From Sphaerochaeta sp. (GTDB lineage Bacteria > Spirochaetota > Spirochaetia > Sphaerochaetales > Sphaerochaetaceae), in assembly GCA_028699215.1 (NCBI GenBank), contig JAQVVB010000004.1, positions 1 through 34,346 on the forward strand: a stretch of 34,346 bases of DNA, written 5' to 3'. The notes under the pieces were generated by a model. That model ran no database searches, was not told the DNA's origin, and saw only the letters and a program-made list of their open reading frames with translations. The position numbers were made by a program, and so were the translations under genes. Positions 4,758 to 25,568 of the stretch are shown piece after piece. Position 1 is the first letter of the stretch, and every line of letters begins with the position of its first letter.

Positions 4758-6788
4758 ATGAATGAGAAACTGACGCGAAATATTGGAATAATGGCACATA
4801 TTGACGCTGGGAAAACCACGACTACGGAAAGAATTCTCTTTTACACAGGAGAGAACCATCGTATTGGAGAAGTGGACAACGGCGAAGCAACCATGGATTT
4901 CATGGAACAAGAACAAAATCGGGGCATCACTATTGCTAGTGCCGCCACAACATGTTCTTGGAAAGGACACCAGATAAACATCATTGATACTCCCGGACAT
5001 GTTGATTTCACCGCTGAGGTGGAACGCTCATTGCGTGTGCTTGATGGTGCTGTCATGGTTGTGTGTGCTGTCGGTGGTGTCGAACCCCAGACAGAGACCG
5101 TCTGGCGTCAGGCAGACACCTATCGAGTCCCTCGCATTGCCTTTGTAAACAAAATGGACCGGCTTGGTGCCAATTTTGAAGAAGCGATTGCAGAACTGAG
5201 GACTAAACTTGGGGCGAATCCCATTCCTTTGTTCATCCCGGTTGGATCAGAAAATGACTTTCAGGGCATCATCAATATCTTGACCAAGAAATTCATCACA
5301 TTCGATCGCGAAGACCAGGGAAAGACCATTGAGGAAAATGAGATTCCCGAAGCATTATCCGAGACCACCGAAACATGGTACGATCGTTTGATCGACAGTG
5401 TCTCTTCTTTCGATGATGAGATAACCGAGCTCTATTTTGACGGAAAAGAAATTCCCATTGATTTGGTGAAAAAGGCGTTGAAGAAAGCAACGATATCCAG
5501 AGAAGCGCTTCCCGTGTTCGTTGGGTCATCACTTAAGGATATTGGAGTCCAATCACTTTTAGATGGCGTGATCGACTACCTCCCCTCTCCCTCTGAGGTT
5601 CCCCCCTTGGTGGGCATCAACCAGAAAACTGAAAAGAATGTTGAAATCGTGTATGAGAAGGACAAAGCTCCTTTGGCACTCATCTTCAAGATTCAAGTCG
5701 ACCGTGAAGCCGGTCCCTTGAATTTCGTCCGCGTGTATCATGGTACCATCAAGAAAGGTACCGCAATCATGAACATCTCGAAAAAGAAACGGGAACGGGT
5801 CAATCGGATTTTGCGTATGCATGCAAACAGAAGTGAGGAACTAACGGAATTGGAAGCCGGTGACATTGGTGTCATCGTAGGTTTCAAAGAGGGAAGAACA
5901 GGCGATACCATCGGAAGTGAAGGCGCCCAGATTCTCTTGGAAGAGATGCATTTCCCTATTCCCGTCATCTCCATTGCCATTGAACCCAACACGCTCAGTG
6001 ATGGGGACAAATTGCGTGATGCACTATCACTTTTGGCTCAAGAAGACCCTACCTTCACCTATCGTGACGATGAAGAGACCGGTCAGTTGATCATCAGCGG
6101 AATGGGAGAGCTGCATCTCGATGTCTTGGTGACCCGATTGACCAAGGAGATGAAGATCCAAGCAAGAGTAGGCAAGCCTCAGGTCACATACAGAGAGTCC
6201 ATCACCCAGACCGCAAGCGGAAGTGAAACATTCACCAAGGTCCTTGCCGGCAAGGAAAACTCTGCAAGTGTGGGTCTTACCGTTCGCCCGCTTCCCTCTG
6301 GGAGTGGCACCAAGTATGTTTGCTCGGCTAAAGTAAAGGGAATGCCGGAAGTTTTCTATGAAAGCGTTAAGAGGGGCATCAACAATGCATTCAAAGGCGG
6401 CATACAGTTTGGTTACGATGTGTGTGATATGGAGGTTGAAGTCACCTCTCTTTCATACAATGAACTGACAGCTTCGGAATTTGCATATGAAGCCTGCGCA
6501 GCCATCTGTTTCGATAAGGTATCCCAAAGTGCCAATCCTGTTTTGATGGAGCCCATCATGAAAGTCACGGTGGCCGTTCCTTCCCAGTATGTCGGGGAAG
6601 CGATTTCCAGCCTTACCAGCAGAAGCGGTTTGGTAAACAGCATTGAAAGCAGACCTGCCTCAGAGTACATTCATGCCCAGGCGCCTCTTTCACAGTTGTT
6701 CGGCTATTCGACCATTCTCCGATCAGCTACTCAAGGAAGAGGGACTTTTTCCATGGAATTCGACCACTACGCTCAGAAACAGCGTTAA
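4758..6788 (+). CDS. Elongation factor G paralogue, candidate EF-G2 (ribosome-recycling) type
   Basis: 676 aa; [62 protein letters not shown]; domain IV has [17 protein letters not shown] rather than the usual KKQSGGxGQ loop. Confidence 0.92.
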
Positions 6789-7345: not shown

Positions 7346-7531
7346 ATTGTCTGGATTCCACAGTGAACCGTGTTTTTTTCTGAATCTTTTCGCTTCATAT
7401 ACGCTCGTTTTGCACAGGTTTCCAAGACCATGCAAAAAAGAATTCTTTTGACATATGAGATTAAGAGGCTTACCATTGCTCATATGCGTTTTAGGACACT
7501 AGGGAACACCCTGGTGATCAAAGGAGGAATT

Positions 7532-9619
7532 ATGAGCGTTGTCAGCACAGACCTGAGGAATGTCGCAATCATTGGCCACAACGATACCGGGAAAACCACG
7601 TTGCTAGAGCAGTTGTTGTTCTACTCCAATGTGATTTCCCGTCCTGAATCGGTTGCCAGCGGAAGGACTACCAGCGACTTCACTGAAGAAGAAATCGCGC
7701 ACAAGATTTCCATTCACACCTCCCTTGCTTCCACAAACTGGGAAGGCAAGACCTTAAATTTTCTCGATACTCCGGGAACCGCCGGTTTTATCGGAGAAAC
7801 CATCTGTGGATTCCGTTCTTGTGAATCAGCACTGATGGTTGTAGACGCACGTGATGGAGCACAGATAGAGACCATCAAACTCTGGCGTCATCTAGATGAA
7901 AGAAACAAACCACGAGCAGTTTTCATCAATAAAATGGACCGCGACCGTGCAGATTATACAGCAGTCATTGAAAACCTTAGAGAAACCTTCCCTAACGCCA
8001 CCTTCGTACCGGTTGCCATCCCCTTGGGATCAGGTAAGGAATTCAAAGGTGTCGTCAATCTTATTGAAAACAAAGAATACATCTTCTCAGAAGGGGGAAA
8101 AGAGACCGTTGAAGAAATTTCTCCAGACCAAGTCGACTATGTGGAACAATTCAGGGAAGCCCTCATCGAGAATGCCGCAGAAGGAGCAGATGACCTCATC
8201 GAGAAATTCTTTGATGCAGGAACCCTGGAAAGCGACGATATACGACGCGGCCTTCGTGAAGGAATGGATCAGAACAGAGTGGTACCGGTTTTCTGTGGTG
8301 CTGCTGAGAAAGGATCCGGTATCGTGAGCTTGTTGACCTTCATCAGGTACAATTTCCCTAGACCCTTGGGAAAAATGGAGTGGATCGTCGATGAAAACGG
8401 CAATATCAGCGATTATCCCATCAAGGAAGAAGGAGCTGTAAGTGCTGTCGTATTCAAAACCACACTGGATCAGTTCAGTGGCAAGCTGAGCTTCATCAAA
8501 GTGGTGACTGGGACGCTGAAAGGCGATACAGAACTTTACAACCCCTCCATCGGCAAAAAGGAAAGACCGGGAAAAATCTACCGTATGGTCGGGAAAAAAC
8601 TCATTGAGACCGATGCTCTGAGTGCTGGTGATATCGGTGTCATAGCAAAAAGCAACATAGCATTGACCAACTCCACCCTATTGGAAGGGCCTGAACAGAA
8701 GGTTAAATTCAAGAAAGTAGCATTCCCCCAACCTATTTATGCCCTCGCCATTGCTGCAGATGATAAAAAGGGCGAAGTGAAGATGAACGAGGCACTCCAC
8801 AAGGTCACCGAAGAGGATCTGACATTCAGAATCCGTTATAACGAGGAAACCAAGGAGAGTGTTGTAGCTGGTATGGGAGAACTTCATATCAACATGATCC
8901 TCGACAAGATTCGGGACAAGCAGAAAGTCATCATTCATACCAAGTTACCACGAGTTGCTTACCGTGAGACCATCACCAAAAAAAGTGGGCTTGCTGAATA
9001 TTCCCATAAGAAACAGAGTGGTGGACATGGCCAATATGCACGTGTAATGATTGAAATCGCTCCAATCGAGCGAGGACAATACTACGCTTTCACCAATGCA
9101 ATTAAGGGAGGATCGGTCAGCAAAGGGTATATACCCGGTATTGAAAAAGGTCTTCATGAACAAATGGAAGAAGGTTTCTTGGCTGGCTATCCGATGGTCG
9201 ATATCGGAATAACCCTCATCGATGGAAAGGAACACCCTGTAGATTCCAGTGAAATGGCATTCAAATTGGCGGCAAAAGGCGCAATGAAGGCGGCTTTGGA
9301 AAAAGCAGGGACCGTACTACTTGAACCAATCATGAAACTTAGTGTATATGTAGAGAACGATTATCTTGGAGATATCCTTTCAGACCTATCTGGCAAACGT
9401 GGCAGAGTCCTTGGTCAGGAAGATATCGGCCATTTGCAGTTGGTCAAAGCATTGGTTCCGCAGGCAGAATTATTGAATTACGCCATTGATCTAAAATCAA
9501 TGACCAGTGGAACGGGTAGCTTTGAAATGGAATTTGATCACTATGAACCGTTGAGTGGAAAACTTGCGGATGAAGTGGTGAAGACCTACAAGGAAACCTT
9601 GAAAGAAGAGGTTGAGTAG
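7532..9619 (+). CDS. EF-G-like translational GTPase with diverged G domain (EF-G-II/FusA2-like)
   Basis: ATG at 7532 with AAAGGAGG SD; GHNDTGKTTLLEQLLFYS, EIAHKISIHTS, FLDTPGTAGFIGE, NKMDRD; domain IV YSHKKQSGGHGQYARV. Confidence 0.9.
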   Translation: MSVVSTDLRNVAIIGHNDTGKTTLLEQLLFYSNVISRPESVASGRTTSDFTEEEIAHKISIHTSLASTNWEGKTLNFLDTPGTAGFIGETICGFRSCESALMVVDARDGAQIETIKLWRHLDERNKPRAVFINKMDRDRADYTAVIENLRETFPNATFVPVAIPLGSGKEFKGVVNLIENKEYIFSEGGKETVEEISPDQVDYVEQFREALIENAAEGADDLIEKFFDAGTLESDDIRRGLREGMDQNRVVPVFCGAAEKGSGIVSLLTFIRYNFPRPLGKMEWIVDENGNISDYPIKEEGAVSAVVFKTTLDQFSGKLSFIKVVTGTLKGDTELYNPSIGKKERPGKIYRMVGKKLIETDALSAGDIGVIAKSNIALTNSTLLEGPEQKVKFKKVAFPQPIYALAIAADDKKGEVKMNEALHKVTEEDLTFRIRYNEETKESVVAGMGELHINMILDKIRDKQKVIIHTKLPRVAYRETITKKSGLAEYSHKKQSGGHGQYARVMIEIAPIERGQYYAFTNAIKGGSVSKGYIPGIEKGLHEQMEEGFLAGYPMVDIGITLIDGKEHPVDSSEMAFKLAAKGAMKAALEKAGTVLLEPIMKLSVYVENDYLGDILSDLSGKRGRVLGQEDIGHLQLVKALVPQAELLNYAIDLKSMTSGTGSFEMEFDHYEPLSGKLADEVVKTYKETLKEEVE

Positions 9620-10473: not shown

Positions 10474-13400
10474 CTATAAAAGCCGTTGCAACTTTTCCAT
10501 CAGGAACAAGGCCTTGTCCTTTAAGGAAACCGCATCGGTCTTCATAAACATAACATTCATTCTTCTCGTATCGATCCAGATACTTTTCCCACTCAATTTA
10601 ATCAGAGACATCACTTTTTCGACATTAAGATTCGCCACCTTGCCGAATTCCAAGGAAACGACTCCTTTTCTATCGGTAAGATGGATGATGGAAAGCTTGC
10701 GGCAGATGATCTTGATCTCTGCAATATACAACAAATTGGCCACTTCCTCTGGAGGAGGTCCAAAGCGGTCATCCAGCTCACTGGAGAGTTGTTGCAATTG
10801 GGACTCATCTGCAATGGAGGAAATCTTTCGGTAAATATCGAACTTGACCGAAGGAGCCTTGATATACGTATCGGGTATGAAACCAGTATAGTCGAGTTCA
10901 AGGAAGACCTCTTTCTCTCGCTCCACCTCACCAGTTTTTTGTAGGTCTGCGATGGCTTCATCCAAAATTCTTATATACATGTCCAGACCGACGGAGGCAA
11001 GTTGACCGCTCTGCTCCCTACCCAGCAGATTACCAGTACCACGAATCTCCATATCCTTCATGGCCACCTTGAACCCTGAACCCAATTCAGTATGTTCACT
11101 GATGATTTTCAGGCGCTTTACTGCAATTTCACTCAAAGCGCTTCCCTGGGGATAAAACAGATACGCATACGCCTGGCGGTCGTTCCTTCCTACTCGTCCT
11201 CGCAGCTGATAGAGCTGACTCAAGCCATACAGGTCGGCTCTATCGATGATGATCGTATTTACATTGGGGATATCGATGCCATTCTCAATGATCGTGGTCG
11301 AGACAAGAACCTGGATTCCTTCGTGTACGAACCTCCGCATGGTATCTTCCAGTACCTTGCTGTCCATCTGTCCATGAGCACTTTCAATGACGAGGTCCGG
11401 AAGCTGGGTGGAGAGTTGTCTCACCACTTCATCAAGACTCTCAATCCTGTTGTGCAGGAAGAACACCTGACCTCCTCGATTCACCTCATCCCTGATTGCC
11501 TTGACGATGATGTATTCATCATACTCATCAATTTTTGTTTCAATTGGCATTCTGGCGATAGGAGGAGTGGTGAGCAGAGACATGTCACGAATCTTGAGCA
11601 GGGACATATAAAGCGTTCTGGGTATGGGAGTTGCACTGAGAGAGAGCGAATCTACACTGTTTCTCATGGTTTTGATCCGTTCCTTGTCCTTGACTCCGAA
11701 CCGCTGTTCTTCATCAACCACCAACAGTCCGAGATCACGATAAAGCAAATCCTTCTGCAAAATCCTATGGGTCCCGAACAGAATATCCACCTTGCCCTCA
11801 GCGACAGCAAGCAAGGTTTGTTTTTGTTCTTTCTTGGGCACAATTCGAGACAAGTGGGCGCAACGCACAGGAAACGATCCTACCCGTTTGATGAAGTTGT
11901 CGTAATGCTGTTCTGCCAGAATGGTTGTCGGAGCCAAAAAAGCTACCTGTTTCCCACCCATAACCGCTTTGAACGCTGCTCTGAAGGCAATTTCGGTTTT
12001 GCCATATCCAACATCGCCACAAACCAATCGGTCCATGACCATTGGTTTTTCCATATCCTCTTTGATGTCCTCGATGCAGGTCAGCTGATCGGCGGTTTCA
12101 TCAAAGGGAAACGAAGCTTCAAACTGCAACTGCCAATCGGTATCCTTGGGGAAGGCAAAGCCTATGCTGTTCTTTCGTTTCGCATACAAGGAAATGAGAT
12201 GTTTAGCCAAATCCTCGGCATTTTTCCGCGCCTTGGCTTTTTTATTTTCCCACCCTTGTCCTCCCAATTTATCTTTCCTGGGAGCTCCTTGTTCACTGCC
12301 TATATAGCGTTGGACTAGATTTGCCTGTTCTATCGGGACATAGAGCATTTCGCCATCGGCATATGCAATCTTTATGTAGTCGCGTTCACGATCAAAACTC
12401 GAGACCCTATCGATTTTAACGAACTGCCCCACCCCATAATTCACATGAACGACATAGTCGCCTTCATTGAGATCGACAAAGGAATCAAGAGGTGAAGACT
12501 GGGTATGCTGCAGAGTTTTGACCACCTGCCGCCTTCTTCCAAAGATTTCATGTTCACATAGTGCTACCACTTTTTGGGAAGGTATGGAAAACCCTTCGGA
12601 AATCTCGTGATTTTCCCATTGCAGAAATTCAAAAGCTGAAAGCATCTGCATCAGACGTTGCTTCTGCAAAAGGTTTTCGGTGAAAACCGTTACCTGATAT
12701 CCATTCTTCTGCAGTACCTGCAACTCTTCCTTGAGCAAGGTGAAGTTTCCAAAATATGAGCGAGGACCATCAATATCAAAGCGAAATGAACCTTCTTTCT
12801 GCCCTGCAATATCGAGAAGGGTAAGGCTCCTTTTGCATTTTTCCTGGAACGAGGGGAAGTCAAACAAGATCTCATCAGGTCTTTTAACGTCCCGATGTAT
12901 CAGAAAAGCTTCGCGATACAAGGCCTTAGCTTCCAGTTGCAGACTATGATAACTGGTGGCAAGCCTTTGGTCTCCAATGAAACAAAAAAAATCATTATCC
13001 TGAAAATACGATTCTATCGAAGACGAGAGAAGCGATTCGTTGGTTGCATCAAGCAGGGAAATGGAAAACTTGTTGATACGTTCGGTGGTCTCTTGCGTGA
13101 TGGGATTGTATTTGCTGATCTTGCCAACGGTATCCCAGTCGGCATAAATACGATAAGGAAAATCACTCTCATAAGGGAAAATATCCAAAACCTCTCCTCG
13201 AACGGTAAATTCCCCTGGCATGGAGGTCGCTACCGTATTGAGATACCCGGCTTTGGACAACTCTTCACTGAGTGATGTTGAATCGAATGAGGAACCTACC
13301 ATAATGGTGAGTTCAGAATCGTTGAGAGCCTGAGGAGAAACCATTTGACTCACAAAAGGCCTGAGATGCGTGATGATGAGGCCTTGAGGACAATCCTTGA

Positions 13401-13803
13401 TGGCGTTGAGTCGTTCCAACTGGGAATACTCTATGTTATCGCCGGTAAACTGGGAATAAAGCTTTCTTCCATGGCTAGGAAGATAGAGTGTCTTCACTTC
13501 TTGATTTGACAAAGGAGTCTGCATCACCGATTTCGCATCGACCTGAAAACCGCTGTCTTTCAATAATTGCAAGGCACTGTCCTCGGTCGGACAAATCACC
13601 CAGATTCTGTTTTTTCTTCCACGAGTGAGCATACGTAAAAAAACAGCCAAAGGATACCCTTCTATCCCATTGACAAAGAGGGGAAAGGCACCTGAAGCAT
13701 ACGCCTTGTACGCAGGACTGCTTTTGATATACGATTGCACTGATGTGGCGATAGTCATTTCCATAAGCGCCATTACCCTATCACGAGCAAGAAGGTTATG
13801 CAA
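10474..13803 (-). CDS. mfd: Transcription-repair coupling factor
   Basis: 1109 aa; GDYVVHVNYGVGQF RNAP-interaction region; MDRLVCGDVGYGKTEIAFRAAFKA, DEEQRFGVKDKERIK, SATPIPRTLYMSL, RGRVGRNDRQAYAY. Start uncertain (possible ATG at 13773). Confidence 0.97.
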   Translation of the reverse strand: MHNLLARDRVMALMEMTIATSVQSYIKSSPAYKAYASGAFPLFVNGIEGYPLAVFLRMLTRGRKNRIWVICPTEDSALQLLKDSGFQVDAKSVMQTPLSNQEVKTLYLPSHGRKLYSQFTGDNIEYSQLERLNAIKDCPQGLIITHLRPFVSQMVSPQALNDSELTIMVGSSFDSTSLSEELSKAGYLNTVATSMPGEFTVRGEVLDIFPYESDFPYRIYADWDTVGKISKYNPITQETTERINKFSISLLDATNESLLSSSIESYFQDNDFFCFIGDQRLATSYHSLQLEAKALYREAFLIHRDVKRPDEILFDFPSFQEKCKRSLTLLDIAGQKEGSFRFDIDGPRSYFGNFTLLKEELQVLQKNGYQVTVFTENLLQKQRLMQMLSAFEFLQWENHEISEGFSIPSQKVVALCEHEIFGRRRQVVKTLQHTQSSPLDSFVDLNEGDYVVHVNYGVGQFVKIDRVSSFDRERDYIKIAYADGEMLYVPIEQANLVQRYIGSEQGAPRKDKLGGQGWENKKAKARKNAEDLAKHLISLYAKRKNSIGFAFPKDTDWQLQFEASFPFDETADQLTCIEDIKEDMEKPMVMDRLVCGDVGYGKTEIAFRAAFKAVMGGKQVAFLAPTTILAEQHYDNFIKRVGSFPVRCAHLSRIVPKKEQKQTLLAVAEGKVDILFGTHRILQKDLLYRDLGLLVVDEEQRFGVKDKERIKTMRNSVDSLSLSATPIPRTLYMSLLKIRDMSLLTTPPIARMPIETKIDEYDEYIIVKAIRDEVNRGGQVFFLHNRIESLDEVVRQLSTQLPDLVIESAHGQMDSKVLEDTMRRFVHEGIQVLVSTTIIENGIDIPNVNTIIIDRADLYGLSQLYQLRGRVGRNDRQAYAYLFYPQGSALSEIAVKRLKIISEHTELGSGFKVAMKDMEIRGTGNLLGREQSGQLASVGLDMYIRILDEAIADLQKTGEVEREKEVFLELDYTGFIPDTYIKAPSVKFDIYRKISSIADESQLQQLSSELDDRFGPPPEEVANLLYIAEIKIICRKLSIIHLTDRKGVVSLEFGKVANLNVEKVMSLIKLSGKSIWIDTRRMNVMFMKTDAVSLKDKALFLMEKLQRLL

Positions 13804-18362: not shown

Positions 18363-18833
18363 TTGGAAACATACGGGGTACCCCTTCTCTGTCTTCTTTT
18401 AAATTTTCTTGCCTTTACCGCCTGCATGAGGTTTCTCTTTTCACGTCAGGGCTTCTATTGGATTGTCCCCTTGTTGGTAACGATTTTTCTGTTGTGGCCA
18501 AATGCCCTCAGACTGTATCAGGTGGCTGGAAATGGAGCAATTCAAGCAACAGGCTTTTCCTACTTTGACCTCCAACCTCTTTTGTTGTCCCTTTTGTGGT
18601 ATGCGATGATCGTCACTTTCCACTATGCCTTGAAAAAGACAGTACGAGCAAACTATCATCATGAACAAGTCAAGAAAAATCTTCATGAAGCCCGATATCA
18701 GATGTCGGTGGAATCCGTCACCCATCAGAGAAAAGAACAAAGAAGAAAACATTACTTCACCAATGCACCTGCTAGAACTCCACGTCTTCAGGCATACAGC
18801 AGTGAATGGACCGATTTGTTCGACCAACGCTGA
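18363..18833 (+). CDS. Small membrane protein of unknown function (about three N-terminal TM segments, charged C-terminal tail)
   Basis: TTG start 18363 with GGAGG SD 7 nt upstream; first gene of the aroK-aroC-xpb cluster. Confidence 0.6.
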   Translation: METYGVPLLCLLLNFLAFTACMRFLFSRQGFYWIVPLLVTIFLLWPNALRLYQVAGNGAIQATGFSYFDLQPLLLSLLWYAMIVTFHYALKKTVRANYHHEQVKKNLHEARYQMSVESVTHQRKEQRRKHYFTNAPARTPRLQAYSSEWTDLFDQR

Positions 18834-18835
18834 GC

Positions 18836-19357
18836 ATGGATACACACCTCTTCTTCTGCGGCATCAAACACTGCGGAAAATCCACCCTTGGCAGATTGGT
18901 AGCCCAAAAGATGGGTACGTTCTGCGTGGACAATGATGATCTTATACTCGCCGATCTTCATGGATATCCTTCCATACGAGCCATGTATAAAAAAGAAGGC
19001 AAAGCCTCTTTCATGGAGAAAGAGACGGAGACACTTAAAAGATATCTGGAGAATAACAATCAGAAATGTATTGTCAGCCTAGGAGGAGGAGCATGTGACA
19101 ACCTTCCCCTCATATCCCTCATCAAACGCTATGGGAAAGTGGTATATCTGCAGGTTGACGAGAAAGTATTGCTGAAGCGAATCCTTGTCGATGGCATTCC
19201 TCCCTTCCTTGACAGCCAGGATGTGGAAGGTTCATTTGCCGCCTTGTATGCCGATCGCCATGAACGCTATAGAAAATTATCTGACATTATGGTAAAATTG
19301 CCGGATTATCCGGATATCAAGGATACGGCAACATTCTTGTTTTCCAGTCTTTCTTAG
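18836..19357 (+). CDS. aroK: Shikimate kinase-like protein, diverged
   Basis: GIKHCGKSTLGRLVAQKMG, VSLGGGACDN, RHERYRKLSDI; adjacent to aroC; ATG 18836. Confidence 0.75.
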   Translation: MDTHLFFCGIKHCGKSTLGRLVAQKMGTFCVDNDDLILADLHGYPSIRAMYKKEGKASFMEKETETLKRYLENNNQKCIVSLGGGACDNLPLISLIKRYGKVVYLQVDEKVLLKRILVDGIPPFLDSQDVEGSFAALYADRHERYRKLSDIMVKLPDYPDIKDTATFLFSSLS

Positions 19358-19365
19358 GAGTTTTT

Positions 19366-20418
19366 ATGGGTCACAACAGTTTCGGTTCTGCATTTACCAT
19401 CACCACCTTCGGGGAGTCGCATGGCGAAGGGCTGGGAGTCATCATCGATGGAATCCAAGCTGGATTTCGTTTGGACCTTGATGCAATACAACAAGAAATG
19501 GATCGAAGAAGGCCTGGCGGCAACGTACTCGGAACGGAAAGAAACGAACAGGACAAGCTGGTCATTCTATCAGGCATGTACGAGGGGATGACCACAGGCA
19601 CTCCTCTTGCAATGATGCTCTTCAACACCAATCAACGTCCCTATGATTACTCAAACCTTGAAAACGTCTTTCGTCCTGGTCATGCAGACTGGTCGTTCTA
19701 TAAGAAATACGGCGTTCGCGACATCCGAGGAGGGGGCCGCTCCTCAGGGCGGGAAACCAGTGCACGGGTGGCAGCAGGTGCTGTAGCAAAGCAGATTCTT
19801 GCCCAACAAGGAATCAAGATATTCGCTGGCACCGTACAGGTTGGCTCGGTCATTGCAGAAAAACGCAATTGGAATGAAACTGATAATCCGCTTACCTGTC
19901 CCGACAGAGAAGCCGCTCTCAAAATGAGCCGACTCATAGAAGAAATTCGTCTGGAAAAGGACAGCATCGGAGGAATCATCGAATGCAGGGTGACCGGGGT
20001 GAAACCAGGGTTGGGAGAACCTGTGTTCGGTAAACTTCAGGCCTTGCTTGCACATGCAGTGATGAGCATCGGAGCTATCAAAGGCATACAATTTGGAGAC
20101 GGATTTGCCTGCGCCACCATGCGTGGAAGCATGTTCAATGACCAAAGGAACGGAGATGGTTTTCTATCCAATCATGCTGGAGGCATGCTCGGTGGTATCT
20201 CAAGCGGGCAAGAAATCATTCTCCAGGCTGCTGTAAAACCTACTGCTTCCATAGCCCGGCCCCAACAGACGATCAACAAACAAGGGGAAACTTCAGTCCT
20301 TGAGATTGAAGGCAGACATGACCCCTGCATTTGCCCACGCGCTGTAGTGGTGGTGGAAGCAATGGTCGCCATCACTCTATTGGATCTCTACTATACTGCT
20401 TTTGGAAAACAACAATGA
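19366..20418 (+). CDS. aroC: Chorismate synthase
   Basis: MGHNSFGSAFTITTFGESHG, RRRPGGNVLGTERNE, GRSSGRETSARVAAGAVAK, KPTASI. Confidence 0.97.
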   Translation: MGHNSFGSAFTITTFGESHGEGLGVIIDGIQAGFRLDLDAIQQEMDRRRPGGNVLGTERNEQDKLVILSGMYEGMTTGTPLAMMLFNTNQRPYDYSNLENVFRPGHADWSFYKKYGVRDIRGGGRSSGRETSARVAAGAVAKQILAQQGIKIFAGTVQVGSVIAEKRNWNETDNPLTCPDREAALKMSRLIEEIRLEKDSIGGIIECRVTGVKPGLGEPVFGKLQALLAHAVMSIGAIKGIQFGDGFACATMRGSMFNDQRNGDGFLSNHAGGMLGGISSGQEIILQAAVKPTASIARPQQTINKQGETSVLEIEGRHDPCICPRAVVVVEAMVAITLLDLYYTAFGKQQ

Positions 20419-22076
20419 ATGATAAACCTCTTATAGTCCAAAGCGATAAAACCATGTTGCTCGATGTCCATCACGAATCAGCTGAAGCATGTCGAGCGGA
20501 CTTGGTGCGCTTTTGCGAGCTTATAAAAAGTCCTGAACACGTACACACCTATGCTTTGAGTGCAATTTCTCTATGGAATGCTGCTTCCAGCGGCGTAAAC
20601 AGCGAATACATCTGTGATCGAATCCAATTCTGGTCAAGATTCCCAGTAAGCGACAGTGTCCTCTATTATATCAACGACATCGCATCCCGATTCGGCAAGG
20701 TGGTCCTTACGGAAAGCGATGACCCCATGTACTATAAACTTGAAGTGAAGACCGATCGTATCAGGACAGAACTGATGTCCCGCAAGAACATTGCAAAAAT
20801 GATGATCGTCAACGGTGTCAGGTCTTTTTTGATTGAAAAATATTACCGGGGGGAAGTCAAGCTCCAACTGATTAAATTAGGCTACCCTGTCGATGACCGC
20901 ATTGTCTTGGAGCGGGGGCCTACGGTACCCATGCAGTTCAAGAAAACTAATTCCAAAGGTGAGAAATTTGTCATCCGTCCTTATCAGGTACAGGCAGGAC
21001 AAGCCTTGCTTGGAGATTTGGGGCCCGGCTGTGGATATGGGACGATCGTGCTGCCCTGTGGTTCAGGAAAGACCGTTGTAGGCATGAACATCATGACCCA
21101 ACTGCAAACCCGTACCTTGGTGGTGACCACCAATGTTGCAGCCGTGCATCAATGGATGAGTGAAATACTTGATAAAATGGATTTACAGCCAGACCAAGTG
21201 GGCGAATACACAGGCGAACGAAAAGATCCAAGAGAGGTCACCGTCTGTACCTACCAAGTACTCACCTATCGGCCGGATAAAGACGGCCCGTTCCCCCATC
21301 TGGAGTTGCTCACCAAGGGCGAATGGGGACTGATCATTTATGATGAGGTCCACATGCTTCCTGCTCCGGTTTTCAAGATAACCGCAGAGTTGCAAGCGGT
21401 CTATCGAGTAGGACTCACCGCTACCTTGGTACGCGAAGACGGCAGAGAAGACGAAGTGTTCTCACTCGTTGGTCCCAAACGATTCGACGTGCCTTGGAAT
21501 GAGTTGCAGCAACAAGGATTCATTGCTGAAGCGTACTGCAATGAAATACGAGTCGACCTCCCTCCTGATTTGGAAATCCCCTATGCCTTGGCAAACAAGC
21601 GGGAGAAATACCGTTTGGCCAGTGAAAATCCCTTGAAACTCGATGTGGTGAAAGCCTTGGTCGCCCGCCATCCTGATGATTTCATCTTGATTATCGGACA
21701 ATACATCAATCAACTGGAAACCATTGCTGCTGCATTCAACCTTCCCATCATCACGGGAAGCACTCCCAATGCGAAACGTGAAGAACTCTATCGGGCATTC
21801 AAAGAGGGTGAAAACCATATACTGGTGGTCAGCAAAGTTGCTAATTTTGCCATCGACTTACCCGATGCCTCAGTAGCGATTCAGGTTTCAGGGACCTTTG
21901 GCTCCCGCAGTGAGGAAGCTCAGCGCCTTGGACGAATCCTTAGGCCGAAAAACCGCTCCAGTTTCTTTTATTCAGTGGTGACACGCTACTCCAATGAAGA
22001 GGAGTTTGCAGCAAATCGTCAAAAGTTCCTTGCAGAGCAAGGTTATTCCTACGAAATCGAGGTATGGGCCAATTGA
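20415..22076 (+). CDS. XPB/ERCC3-like superfamily 2 DNA helicase
   Basis: IRPYQVQAG, LPCGSGKTVVGM, DEVH, GLTATLVREDGREDEVF (XPB RED motif), QRLGRILRPK; ATGA overlap with aroC. Confidence 0.9.
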   Translation: MNDKPLIVQSDKTMLLDVHHESAEACRADLVRFCELIKSPEHVHTYALSAISLWNAASSGVNSEYICDRIQFWSRFPVSDSVLYYINDIASRFGKVVLTESDDPMYYKLEVKTDRIRTELMSRKNIAKMMIVNGVRSFLIEKYYRGEVKLQLIKLGYPVDDRIVLERGPTVPMQFKKTNSKGEKFVIRPYQVQAGQALLGDLGPGCGYGTIVLPCGSGKTVVGMNIMTQLQTRTLVVTTNVAAVHQWMSEILDKMDLQPDQVGEYTGERKDPREVTVCTYQVLTYRPDKDGPFPHLELLTKGEWGLIIYDEVHMLPAPVFKITAELQAVYRVGLTATLVREDGREDEVFSLVGPKRFDVPWNELQQQGFIAEAYCNEIRVDLPPDLEIPYALANKREKYRLASENPLKLDVVKALVARHPDDFILIIGQYINQLETIAAAFNLPIITGSTPNAKREELYRAFKEGENHILVVSKVANFAIDLPDASVAIQVSGTFGSRSEEAQRLGRILRPKNRSSFFYSVVTRYSNEEEFAANRQKFLAEQGYSYEIEVWAN

Positions 22077-23971
22077 CAGATTACGCAAAAGAAAAATTCA
22101 AGAATCTCCTCAGCCGATACACAGAGGATAACTATTTCTATATAGCCAGGAATTATCTTGGTCTGATACCTACTCCCTTCCATAAACCTGCCATCACGAC
22201 AAGGCTCTGTTCTTTCTTCTCGCAACAGACCATCCAAGAAAGAATCATCAGTCTGCTTGATGAAATGGATTGTACCATACTCAGTCTGGTCAGCGTTTCC
22301 TCCTCCATCGATGCCCAGACATGTACCGCGTTGTTGAAAGGCAAATGGAGCTATGGAACGCTACTAAGGCGGGTTTCAAACCTCCAAGAACGCATGGTAC
22401 TGCTTAATGACGAAGGGAAATTGGTCTTCAACCCTTTGCTTGAGGAGCGGCTTAAAAGCCTCTGTTCCCTAAAGCCCTTGTTTGGAACTGAACAAAACAG
22501 ACAAAAAAGCACTCCCTACTGTTCCACAGAGTTTGTTCGTGCCTATATATCGTTGATTGAAAAAGAGAAGAAAGTTGTTTTCAAAGATGAATATGCCCTT
22601 TTTTTCCCCGCCTATAATCTAGAACAGTTACAACTGATTTTCACTTCCTTGACAGACACACTTAATAAGTTGTGCATCATCTACCAGCAGAAGGACCGCA
22701 AGACATCAATCAACTACACAAAGGTGCATCAGTTGCTTTCCCTCAACGACAGACAGTTGTTGTGTTTTCTTGTAGCCTTTGATCTGGATGAACGAGCTAT
22801 CAAGGAAGGGGTACAGTTTACCAACAATCTGATCGCCATCTTGGAGAAAATTGGGTGCTGTGATACCTCTTCCCTTAAACTTCTTCTGCGTACGCTCGCA
22901 TTGAAGGCGGGTATCCGATACGACTCTTCCTTGATTGATTGTTTGAGCAAGTGGGGTTTGATTACCCTCGATGAGCTGTGGTATGCAAATCAAATTGAAG
23001 AGAATGTGGGACGTACCACCTTGGTAGTTGATAGTGACAATACCATCAGCTACAGCGGAAGCTGCTGTAAGGATGACATCTTGTACCGCTTTGCAGACAT
23101 CTGTGTTCTCGATAGGCAAACCAGTTACAAAGTGACACCACAGAGCTTCACCCGAGGCTTGGACAACCTTCTTGTCTGGGAACAAGTGAAGACGTATCTT
23201 GAACACAACAGTTATCCCAGCATGAGCATATCGCTGATAAAACTGCTGCAGATAACCTATGAACGGTATCATCAGATTACCATTTATGATGGAATCGTAC
23301 TCACTTGTGACGATAGGACCGCTCGACTTATCGAAAACCTTGAGAGCATTCAGGAACATCACTTGCAGACCATCGCTGCTAATGTGTATTTGATGCGACG
23401 TTCCACAGAAATGCTCTGGCGTCAGATCCTTACGTCATCAGGCGTCCTGCTTCCATCAACCATTGCAGATGAACAGGTGGAAGTGATACATCGGGAGGAT
23501 AACTTCATTTTCACCCTTTTGCTCAAAGAGAGCACGATCGAGCCTCTTGTAGTGGACATAATGGAATTCTCTGATGAAAAACATATGGACGAAGACCCTT
23601 CCATTGCCAATGCAATTGAAAAGGCCACCCTTACATCCTCACAACGTCAGGACCTCGAACACCGCTATAATGCTCGAATGATTCTCATAGAGGAACAGAT
23701 TGTTCCTCAGGTGGTAAATGGGGTCATTGAGGCTGGGGGGTTTGATTACCAAGGCAAAGTCGGTCTTTGCCGTCAGGCAGTGGGGAAACAGAACATCGCG
23801 CTTCAACTTCAGTTGACCGATCAAGAACTGGTGGTCCAAGCATTGGAAGTTGCATACACACCTCAAAAAGAAGCATTGCTGAAAGCCGCAGTCATGCCGA
23901 CCATGGAAGTGAAAATCATCCCGGTCAGCAAAATTTTCTTAGTCAGGCAGCTTCGATATCACCTCTGTTGA
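22064..23971 (+). CDS. Large protein of unknown function, putative partner of the XPB-like helicase
   Basis: 635 aa; overlaps the helicase end by 13 nt; N-terminal LLDEMDCTILSLV...LLKGKWSYGTLLRRVSNLQERMVLL looks winged-helix-like; no catalytic motif recognised. Confidence 0.75.
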   Translation: MGQLTDYAKEKFKNLLSRYTEDNYFYIARNYLGLIPTPFHKPAITTRLCSFFSQQTIQERIISLLDEMDCTILSLVSVSSSIDAQTCTALLKGKWSYGTLLRRVSNLQERMVLLNDEGKLVFNPLLEERLKSLCSLKPLFGTEQNRQKSTPYCSTEFVRAYISLIEKEKKVVFKDEYALFFPAYNLEQLQLIFTSLTDTLNKLCIIYQQKDRKTSINYTKVHQLLSLNDRQLLCFLVAFDLDERAIKEGVQFTNNLIAILEKIGCCDTSSLKLLLRTLALKAGIRYDSSLIDCLSKWGLITLDELWYANQIEENVGRTTLVVDSDNTISYSGSCCKDDILYRFADICVLDRQTSYKVTPQSFTRGLDNLLVWEQVKTYLEHNSYPSMSISLIKLLQITYERYHQITIYDGIVLTCDDRTARLIENLESIQEHHLQTIAANVYLMRRSTEMLWRQILTSSGVLLPSTIADEQVEVIHREDNFIFTLLLKESTIEPLVVDIMEFSDEKHMDEDPSIANAIEKATLTSSQRQDLEHRYNARMILIEEQIVPQVVNGVIEAGGFDYQGKVGLCRQAVGKQNIALQLQLTDQELVVQALEVAYTPQKEALLKAAVMPTMEVKIIPVSKIFLVRQLRYHLC

Positions 23972-25456
23972 TTAGATTTCAGGCTCAATCCAGTGGGGAT
24001 AGTGATATCCGGTGAAGGCTTCAAACTGAAGCTTTCCTTGCTCTATGAGCATTTCTCCACCGCTGATGACCCTACAGCCCGCCTCTTTTGCTCGTTTGAA
24101 AAACGAAGTTTCTTTTGGTTGATAAATCAACTCATATGCAATTTCTTTACCAGAAAATACAAAATCAGGAACAGGATTTTCACCTAAATGGGGAGCCATT
24201 CCTACATTGGTTGTCTGTACCACCAAATCTACAGCCCCGCTATAACGATTGCAGTTTTCCAAGGTATCGTACGTGCTCATCGTCTCACCTGCCAAGGCTT
24301 TTGCATGTTCAATGGTTCGATTGATGACCGTCACTTTGATACCGTGGTTATGCAAAGCCCAGATTACAGCCCTGCTGGCACCACCTGCTCCAATGACCAA
24401 TGCGGAGTGGATTTTTCCTGTTGCTATTTCCGATGAAAGAGGAGCCATGAATCCATAGTAGTCAGTATTGGTTCCCTTCCACATGTTCTGGATACGTACG
24501 ATGGTATTGCACGCTCCAATCTGTTTGACCTCACGGGTTATTCGCCCCAGATACGGTTGTACGTCACGTTTGTAGGGAACGGTGACAGAGAAACCGTGGA
24601 TCTGCAGCATGTCGGCAAGCTTGAAGAACGCCCGTACAGAATCCACTAAAAAGGGAACATACACCGCATTGTAGTGAATTGCTTCAAATCCAGGGTTGTG
24701 AATCATTGGAGAAGCGGTATGGAGAACAGGATTACCGATGATTCCGAAAATATGGGTCTTGTCATTGAGTGTATCAGCACGGTAAAGCTCGCTCATGACT
24801 TGGGCACTGAGATGTCCAGGAGCGGCTTTAGTATCGCTGCAAAATGAAAGCATCGATCCGCACTTTTTATAAAGAATACGTGTGCAGATACCGAAATCTC
24901 CCATACCTATAACGATTTTTTCTTTGACCTCTTTTAGTTCTTCCTGAATTCTGAACAAGGAAATGATGTCTATCATGCTCTTGGGAGTCACGGCGACCTT
25001 TGGAATGTCACCTTTTGCAGCAAGCTTTGAAATCTTTCCATAAATATCGGCGGGAACACACTCGAAATTATGATATGAACGGATGATTCTCATTCCCCTC
25101 TGCTTCATTGAGGCTTCAAAATCGACCTTCTGTTCGAAAAGCGGATCCTTGAACTTGAGATCGCTCTTTTTCACATCGTCTTCAATATCAACATACGAGA
25201 AGTCTCCCTTAGCGGTTTCATAGAGAAGTTGCAACCTCTGTTTTTCAGGAAGATTACACTTACCTCCATCGCTGACCCTTCTCAGGGTAAGAATAACAGG
25301 GATCTCTACCGTAGAAGGAAAGGAAGAAGCGATTTTCTGTTCATCGGCACATAAATAATCCATCCGCAGTTCGGCGAGGGATATCCACTGCCGGTTACGT
25401 TCTACCAGGTTCCGGTTCTCTTCTAGAGTAGAGCCGGTAAGAGTAAGGCAAAGCAC
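23972..25456 (-). CDS. aroDE: Bifunctional 3-dehydroquinate dehydratase (type I)/shikimate dehydrogenase
   Basis: AroD part: LAELRMDYL, IRSYHNFE, VAVTPKS; AroE part: GIIGNPVLHTASPMIHN, FSVTVPYKRDV, NTDYYGF, VIGAGGASRAVIWAL. GTG at 25456 with AGGAGG SD preferred over 25495. Confidence 0.93.
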   Translation of the reverse strand: MLCLTLTGSTLEENRNLVERNRQWISLAELRMDYLCADEQKIASSFPSTVEIPVILTLRRVSDGGKCNLPEKQRLQLLYETAKGDFSYVDIEDDVKKSDLKFKDPLFEQKVDFEASMKQRGMRIIRSYHNFECVPADIYGKISKLAAKGDIPKVAVTPKSMIDIISLFRIQEELKEVKEKIVIGMGDFGICTRILYKKCGSMLSFCSDTKAAPGHLSAQVMSELYRADTLNDKTHIFGIIGNPVLHTASPMIHNPGFEAIHYNAVYVPFLVDSVRAFFKLADMLQIHGFSVTVPYKRDVQPYLGRITREVKQIGACNTIVRIQNMWKGTNTDYYGFMAPLSSEIATGKIHSALVIGAGGASRAVIWALHNHGIKVTVINRTIEHAKALAGETMSTYDTLENCNRYSGAVDLVVQTTNVGMAPHLGENPVPDFVFSGKEIAYELIYQPKETSFFKRAKEAGCRVISGGEMLIEQGKLQFEAFTGYHYPHWIEPEI

Positions 25457-25568
25457 TGTAGACCTCCTGGAGTTAGGTGGATTGTCACCGAACACTTGCT
25501 TGTGTTAAGGTTATCATAACGTCAAACAACGGGCTTTTCAACACCCGTTTACATAAAGGGGTCGTACA

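Follow-up and report, generated by a model that had tools for sequence, protein, structure and literature searches.

In TFIIH, the clutch domain of p52 and the N-terminal domain of XPB share a fold and pair sheet to sheet in a pseudo-symmetric dimer that recruits XPB (PMC6422496). There, p52 and p8, along with the N-terminal extension of XPB and its damage-recognition domain (DRD), ring the RecA domains of the helicase and stimulate its ATPase (PMC7708078), and yeast mutations at the p52-XPB clutch interface lead to UV sensitivity (PMC9557730). A two-gene XPB partnership is found in archaea, where the partner Bax1, a nuclease of the DUF790 family (PMC7293015), modulates the ATPase. For bacteria, the role of XPB has been an open question since the 1990s, and a 2026 review describes it as still elusive (PMC13024598). 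Published work treats bacterial XPB as acting without TFIIH-like partners; a 2012 paper on the Mycobacterium enzyme, which needed large molar excess for unwinding, states that apart from XPB and XPD no TFIIH subunit had a homologue found in bacteria (PMC3353954). Our search of the open-access literature, with few subscription papers among the sources, returned no bacterial TFIIH subunit homologue besides XPB and XPD, nothing on the partner described below and no function for the family of PF13625 'helicase-associated domain-containing proteins' to which it is related.

Here, we analyzed an XPB gene and its downstream neighbor in a window of 34,346 nucleotides from Sphaerochaeta sp., which is one contig of a 2.9-Mb draft genome. 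We consider it likely, with a probability of roughly 0.7, that the neighbor encodes a p52/TFB2-like activator or loader that binds XPB as a subunit of a bacterial XPB complex. A companion of this kind, present with XPB in at least five phyla, would make for a concrete and testable complex, might account for the sluggishness of the isolated helicase in vitro, where it is active only at large excess (PMC3353954), and would bear on the origin of the TFIIH core.

The XPB gene and its surroundings

The helicase gene (20415..22076, plus strand) encodes a protein of 553 aa that matches the NCBIfam model NF045503 'DNA repair helicase XPB' with 806.7 bits (cut-off 610), covering model positions 1-548 of 548. 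Three Pfam domains were detected, each above its own cut-off, namely PF13625 (84.5 bits) in the N-terminal clutch domain (residues 6-131; 20430..20807), ResIII in the RecA1 domain (residues 185-339; 20967..21431) and ERCC3_RAD25_C in the RecA2 domain (residues 364-548; 21504..22058), all on the plus strand. The clutch assignment also draws on the comparison with eukaryotic XPB, to the N-terminal domain of which the region is homologous (E 4e-9 for yeast and 5e-6 for human). The XPB hallmarks GSGKT, DEVH, LVREDGRED and QRLGRILR, which an earlier sequence-only reading of this DNA had listed, were all found in the translation. The helicase is of the Mycobacterium tuberculosis XPB type (NF045503) and shows nothing out of the ordinary.

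The gene lies downstream of a shikimate-kinase-like gene (18806-19357) and of aroC (19366-20418), and its ATG at 20415 shares an ATGA (20415..20418, plus strand) with the aroC stop codon at 20416-20418. The partner gene (22064..23971, plus strand; 635 aa from ATG to stop) in turn begins inside the XPB gene, with an overlap of 13 nt (22064..22076, plus strand) up to the XPB end at 22076 and a GAGG preceding its ATG. Both junctions are thus as the sequence-only reading had described them. Directly after the partner, an aroD-aroE fusion runs in the convergent direction (23972-25495, minus strand). Homologues of the partner are 620-740 aa long and remain uninterrupted at identities of 20-63%; we therefore regard it as a real gene.

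The same reading had also drawn attention to mfd (10474-13803, minus strand) as a second repair translocase gene near XPB. The distance of 6.6 kb is real, but it carries no functional weight, since this neighborhood is kept throughout the genus and gone outside of it, where nine of ten genomes had mfd far from XPB and the remaining one had it at a distance of about 36 kb. Functional clustering of mfd and XPB is therefore rejected, leaving genus-level synteny only. Given that uvrA was found elsewhere in the same genome, XPB is no stand-in for a missing UvrA-type system. Two uvrA genes were seen (G000:C269:22120-24882 and G000:C47:40-2121, the latter within an extended open reading frame of 1151 aa). 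Two different EF-G paralogues (4758-6788 and 7370-9619) were also observed near each other on the same strand.

Relationship of the partner to XPB and p52

For the N-terminal half of the partner, a tandem winged-helix region is predicted (22241..22999, plus strand), with helix/strand patterns at residues 60-122, 155-216 and 250-312. These three patterns of winged-helix-like elements come from an AlphaFold2 model of the N-terminal 312 residues with a mean pLDDT of 60, so that the winged-helix-like N-terminus proposed from the letters is borne out as a pattern, at the low confidence of this model. The Foldseek neighbors of the fragment were mostly winged-helix proteins, none of them at E ≤ 0.001; the best was p52 (E 0.07). 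At the sequence level, neither the N-terminal nor the C-terminal part searched alone gave anything significant, and the N-terminal half alone had no significant match to p52. Residues 20-55 (22121-22228) carry a conserved NYLGxxxTPFHKPxLxxxL that by eye resembles a SAP-type DNA-binding motif, with no Pfam hit.

The C-terminal domain (23576..23968, plus strand) is conserved in the class through an EAxGxDYxGK...KIFxxR motif. In two actinobacterial partners (L096 and L098), Pfam identifies the C-terminus as a WYL domain (PF13280; 32-41 bits, cut-off 21.8). The window partner had no Pfam hit to WYL, and its hhalign comparison was suggestive of a WYL-like C-terminus without being significant (probability 19%, P 0.0012; reversed control 0.1%). 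The partners of other spirochaete orders stop right after the clutch/DRD segment, similar to p52, which ends soon after its own clutch. Winged helices together with a WYL-like C-terminus could also be those of a DNA-damage-responsive transcription regulator that senses DNA through an XPB-derived domain and is merely co-regulated with XPB, as the WYL domains of the actinobacterial partners and the presence of winged-helix regulators, for example IclR and MarR, among the neighbors of the fragment model would suggest. However, the WYL match of the window partner is not significant, the clutch is known as a domain that docks to XPB, and the partners of other spirochaete orders have no such C-terminus, which makes a regulator unlikely in our view.

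In its middle, the partner has a weak match to PF13625 (Helicase_C_3) at residues 338-420 (E 5.8e-5), which at 23.5 bits is below the cut-off of 34.2; the match was found in all 23 aligned partners and is above this threshold in some relatives, among them L027, L069 and L066. When compared with hhalign, partner residues 316-471 aligned with XPB residues 2-167, which comprise the clutch and the DRD, at a probability of 97.6% (P 3.8e-12), and the DRD segments compared alone still reached P 8e-6, while reversed-profile controls for the partner comparisons had a probability of at most 1.6%. Based on these profile matches and the low controls, residues 316-471 are a copy of the N-terminal half of XPB, that is, a helicase-less paralogue consisting of a clutch domain (residues 316-392; 23009..23239, plus strand), also homologous to the p52/TFB2 clutch, and a DRD-like segment (residues 395-470; 23246..23473, plus strand).

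When a profile of the 23 partners was searched against all PDB sequences, TFB2/p52 of yeast TFIIH came first (E 4.4e-5, 4.7e-5 and 1.6e-4), with XPB N-terminal domains behind it (E 0.008); the partner as a single sequence gave no match, and only profiles succeeded. We then used hhalign with a p52 profile of three sequences. Against this profile, the whole partner scored a probability of 93% (P 3.5e-7), its clutch alone 95.6% (P 1.1e-8) and bacterial XPB 50% (P about 1.6e-4). The profiles thus show the partner clutch to be closer to the p52 clutch than the bacterial XPB N-terminal domain is. In a wider alignment of partners, the p52 match spans residues 252-387 and takes in the segment before the clutch.

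A full-length AlphaFold2 model, built from four sequences (the window partner and three relatives), was poor (pLDDT 46.9) and is not readable as a structure. Nonetheless, ranks 1-17 of a Foldseek search against the PDB were all taken by p52/TFB2 chains (best E 3.2e-5 over about 340 aligned columns), and other proteins followed at E 0.1 or worse, even though the folding itself may lean on p52 structures in the training data. What such a model does say is that along much of the partner, predicted local structure and sequence fit p52 best among solved structures. By the Tfb2 family's own cut-off (PF03849; 34.5 bits), the partner is outside that family, as judged from its sequence: the window partner had no hit, and two of the 23 members match, at E 0.04 at best. 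Taken together, the partner resembles p52/TFB2 (GTF2H4) in its detectable clutch, apparently preceded in collinear order by a winged-helix-like segment, and in its status as a genetic companion of XPB. It differs in that its N-terminal half is not recognizably p52, in the XPB-DRD-like segment that follows the clutch, in the C-terminal domain added in this class and in having no other TFIIH subunits beside it.

With archaeal XPB-Bax1, the pair shares the two-gene arrangement and, presumably, a modulator of the ATPase. No nuclease family was matched by Pfam in the partner, in agreement with the earlier statement that it has no recognizable nuclease motif. DUF790 (PF05626), to which Bax1 belongs, had no hit in the partner and was absent from the source genome and from all 40 relatives searched (0/40), with positive controls, and the identification of the partner as a Bax1-like nuclease is therefore rejected.

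Distribution and linkage of the two genes

Across the whole genus and in most of the class, the partner comes after XPB. In the class-level loci with enough flanking sequence, XPB was directly upstream of the partner in all cases, usually with an overlap. A wider draw of the class contained three of 16 loci in which the two genes were unlinked, as they were in a 1.1-Mb genome (G094). In this latter genome (L090; G094:C1:25131-27484), the N-terminal ~85 residues of the partner are off-frame from a remainder of 732 aa, and the gene lies ~380 kb from XPB. Among 148 genomes of the phylum, we found both genes in 71, XPB only in 43, the partner only in eight and neither in 26, counts that are lower bounds and in which 'XPB only' was partly false in the first search. 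This co-occurrence had a one-sided Fisher p of 6e-5 when kinship was ignored and of 0.02 by family. A more sensitive look at the 'XPB only' genomes revealed the partner adjacent to XPB in three (L076, L077 and L082) and unlinked in five (G048, G061, G139, G180 and G184). Where both genes were present, they were adjacent in 27 of the 71 genomes, far apart on the same contig in seven and on different contigs in 37 (44 unlinked). The persistence of the partner in other orders even where it is unlinked favors a functional tie.

Two groups of genomes provide evidence against a p52-like role. In family f30 (G116 and others), which we presume to be Leptospira-like, XPB is present with no convincing second PF13625 protein in the seven genomes checked; the XPB of this family retains its clutch domain. 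Conversely, in family f39, several MAGs that are 90-95% complete (G115, G149, G164 and G176) carry the partner but lack an XPB that passes the family cut-off. Relatives with XPB that lack this neighbor, named by the sequence-only reading as what would refute its proposal, do occur: linkage is lost in several orders, and the partner itself is missing from one family, the Leptospira-like one.

Beyond the phylum, a plasmid collection, several replicons of which are chromosomes or chromids, contained ten full-length bacterial XPBs, each with a homologue of the partner no more than about 6 kb away. These pairs, from Actinomyces, Arthrobacter, Nonomuraea, Nocardia, Tsukamurella, three Deinococcus, Gloeocapsopsis and Paenibacillus, belong to four further phyla (Actinomycetota, Deinococcota, Cyanobacteriota and Bacillota), and the Paenibacillus genes overlap by 14 nt in the same manner as the pair in the window. 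The family is annotated, given that NCBI names several of these partners 'helicase-associated domain-containing protein'. By profile, the PF13625 proteins of this name in Actinomycetota, Deinococcota and Bacillota are of the same family as the window partner, and they are XPB-linked as well; those of Actinomycetota end in a WYL domain, whereas the window partner is below the PF13625 cut-off.

Two further arrangements were observed on plasmids. In Deinococcus, an ORF of ~100-115 aa lies between XPB and the partner (L067 5741-6040, L092 6238-6567 and L093 6234-6581); its identification as p8/TFB5 was discarded, as by eye its C-terminal half looks like the partner's DRD-like segment. On the Corynebacterium diphtheriae plasmid NZ_CP091096 (L072 3995-5575), a 527-aa ORF joins the first ~365 residues of XPB to a tail like the C-terminus of actinobacterial partners, and is apparently a deletion fusion of neighboring XPB and partner genes.

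This distribution also bears on whether the partner's clutch and DRD might be a free-standing damage-recognition module, derived from XPB by duplication, that would recognize the same lesions without ever binding XPB. The homology across clutch and DRD together would fit such a module, as would the many genomes in which the genes are unlinked and those that have just one of the two. Yet linkage to XPB recurs in five phyla, and the best PDB match is the XPB-binding p52 and not XPB itself, so that we consider this explanation unlikely too, slightly more so than that of a regulator. Many two-gene helicase systems are defence systems, but an anti-phage or other non-repair role of the pair is highly improbable, as PADLOC gave only weak helicase-core matches for XPB and none for the partner, synteny with housekeeping genes is stable in the genus and the distribution across the phylum is broad. 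A scan of viral contigs found no relative.

A probable two-part XPB motor and its possible origin

Because it is co-encoded with XPB and carries a matching clutch, the partner is most simply understood as a docking partner and activator of XPB. The co-encoded, non-nuclease regulatory or DNA-loading subunit proposed by the sequence-only reading pointed in the right direction but was too vague; the second copy of the clutch/DRD module and the match to p52 go beyond it. Probably, then, bacteria possess a two-part mini-TFIIH motor, one that, to judge from the open-access papers searched, is new to the literature. By analogy with TFIIH, the two clutch domains would pair sheet to sheet in a pseudo-symmetric dimer, and the clutch/DRD of the partner may cradle RecA2, thereby holding XPB in an ATPase-competent state. 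The N-terminal winged helices, in this class along with the C-terminal domain, might contact DNA or a further protein and in this way direct the motor to its substrate, while the translational overlap could provide for roughly equal amounts of the two proteins. The job of such a motor would most likely be to open or remodel DNA at sites of damage, working side by side with UvrA-type repair.

Finally, we asked how the bacterial pair relates to that of TFIIH. In a clutch-domain tree built on 88 columns, the XPBs of bacteria and eukaryotes all fell on one side (100/99), with p52 placed within the partners. p52 sits on a very long branch, and the alternative topology, with p52 derived from eukaryotic XPB, was not rejected (p-AU 0.30), for which reason the bacterial pair and that of TFIIH are only possibly homologous. 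That bacterial XPB and its partner are homologous to the core formed by XPB and p52 in TFIIH, with a clutch pair going back to one ancient duplication that preceded the separation of the bacterial and eukaryotic versions, is thus a tentative proposal that we think is rather less probable than its opposite; if true, the motor module of TFIIH would have a bacterial counterpart.
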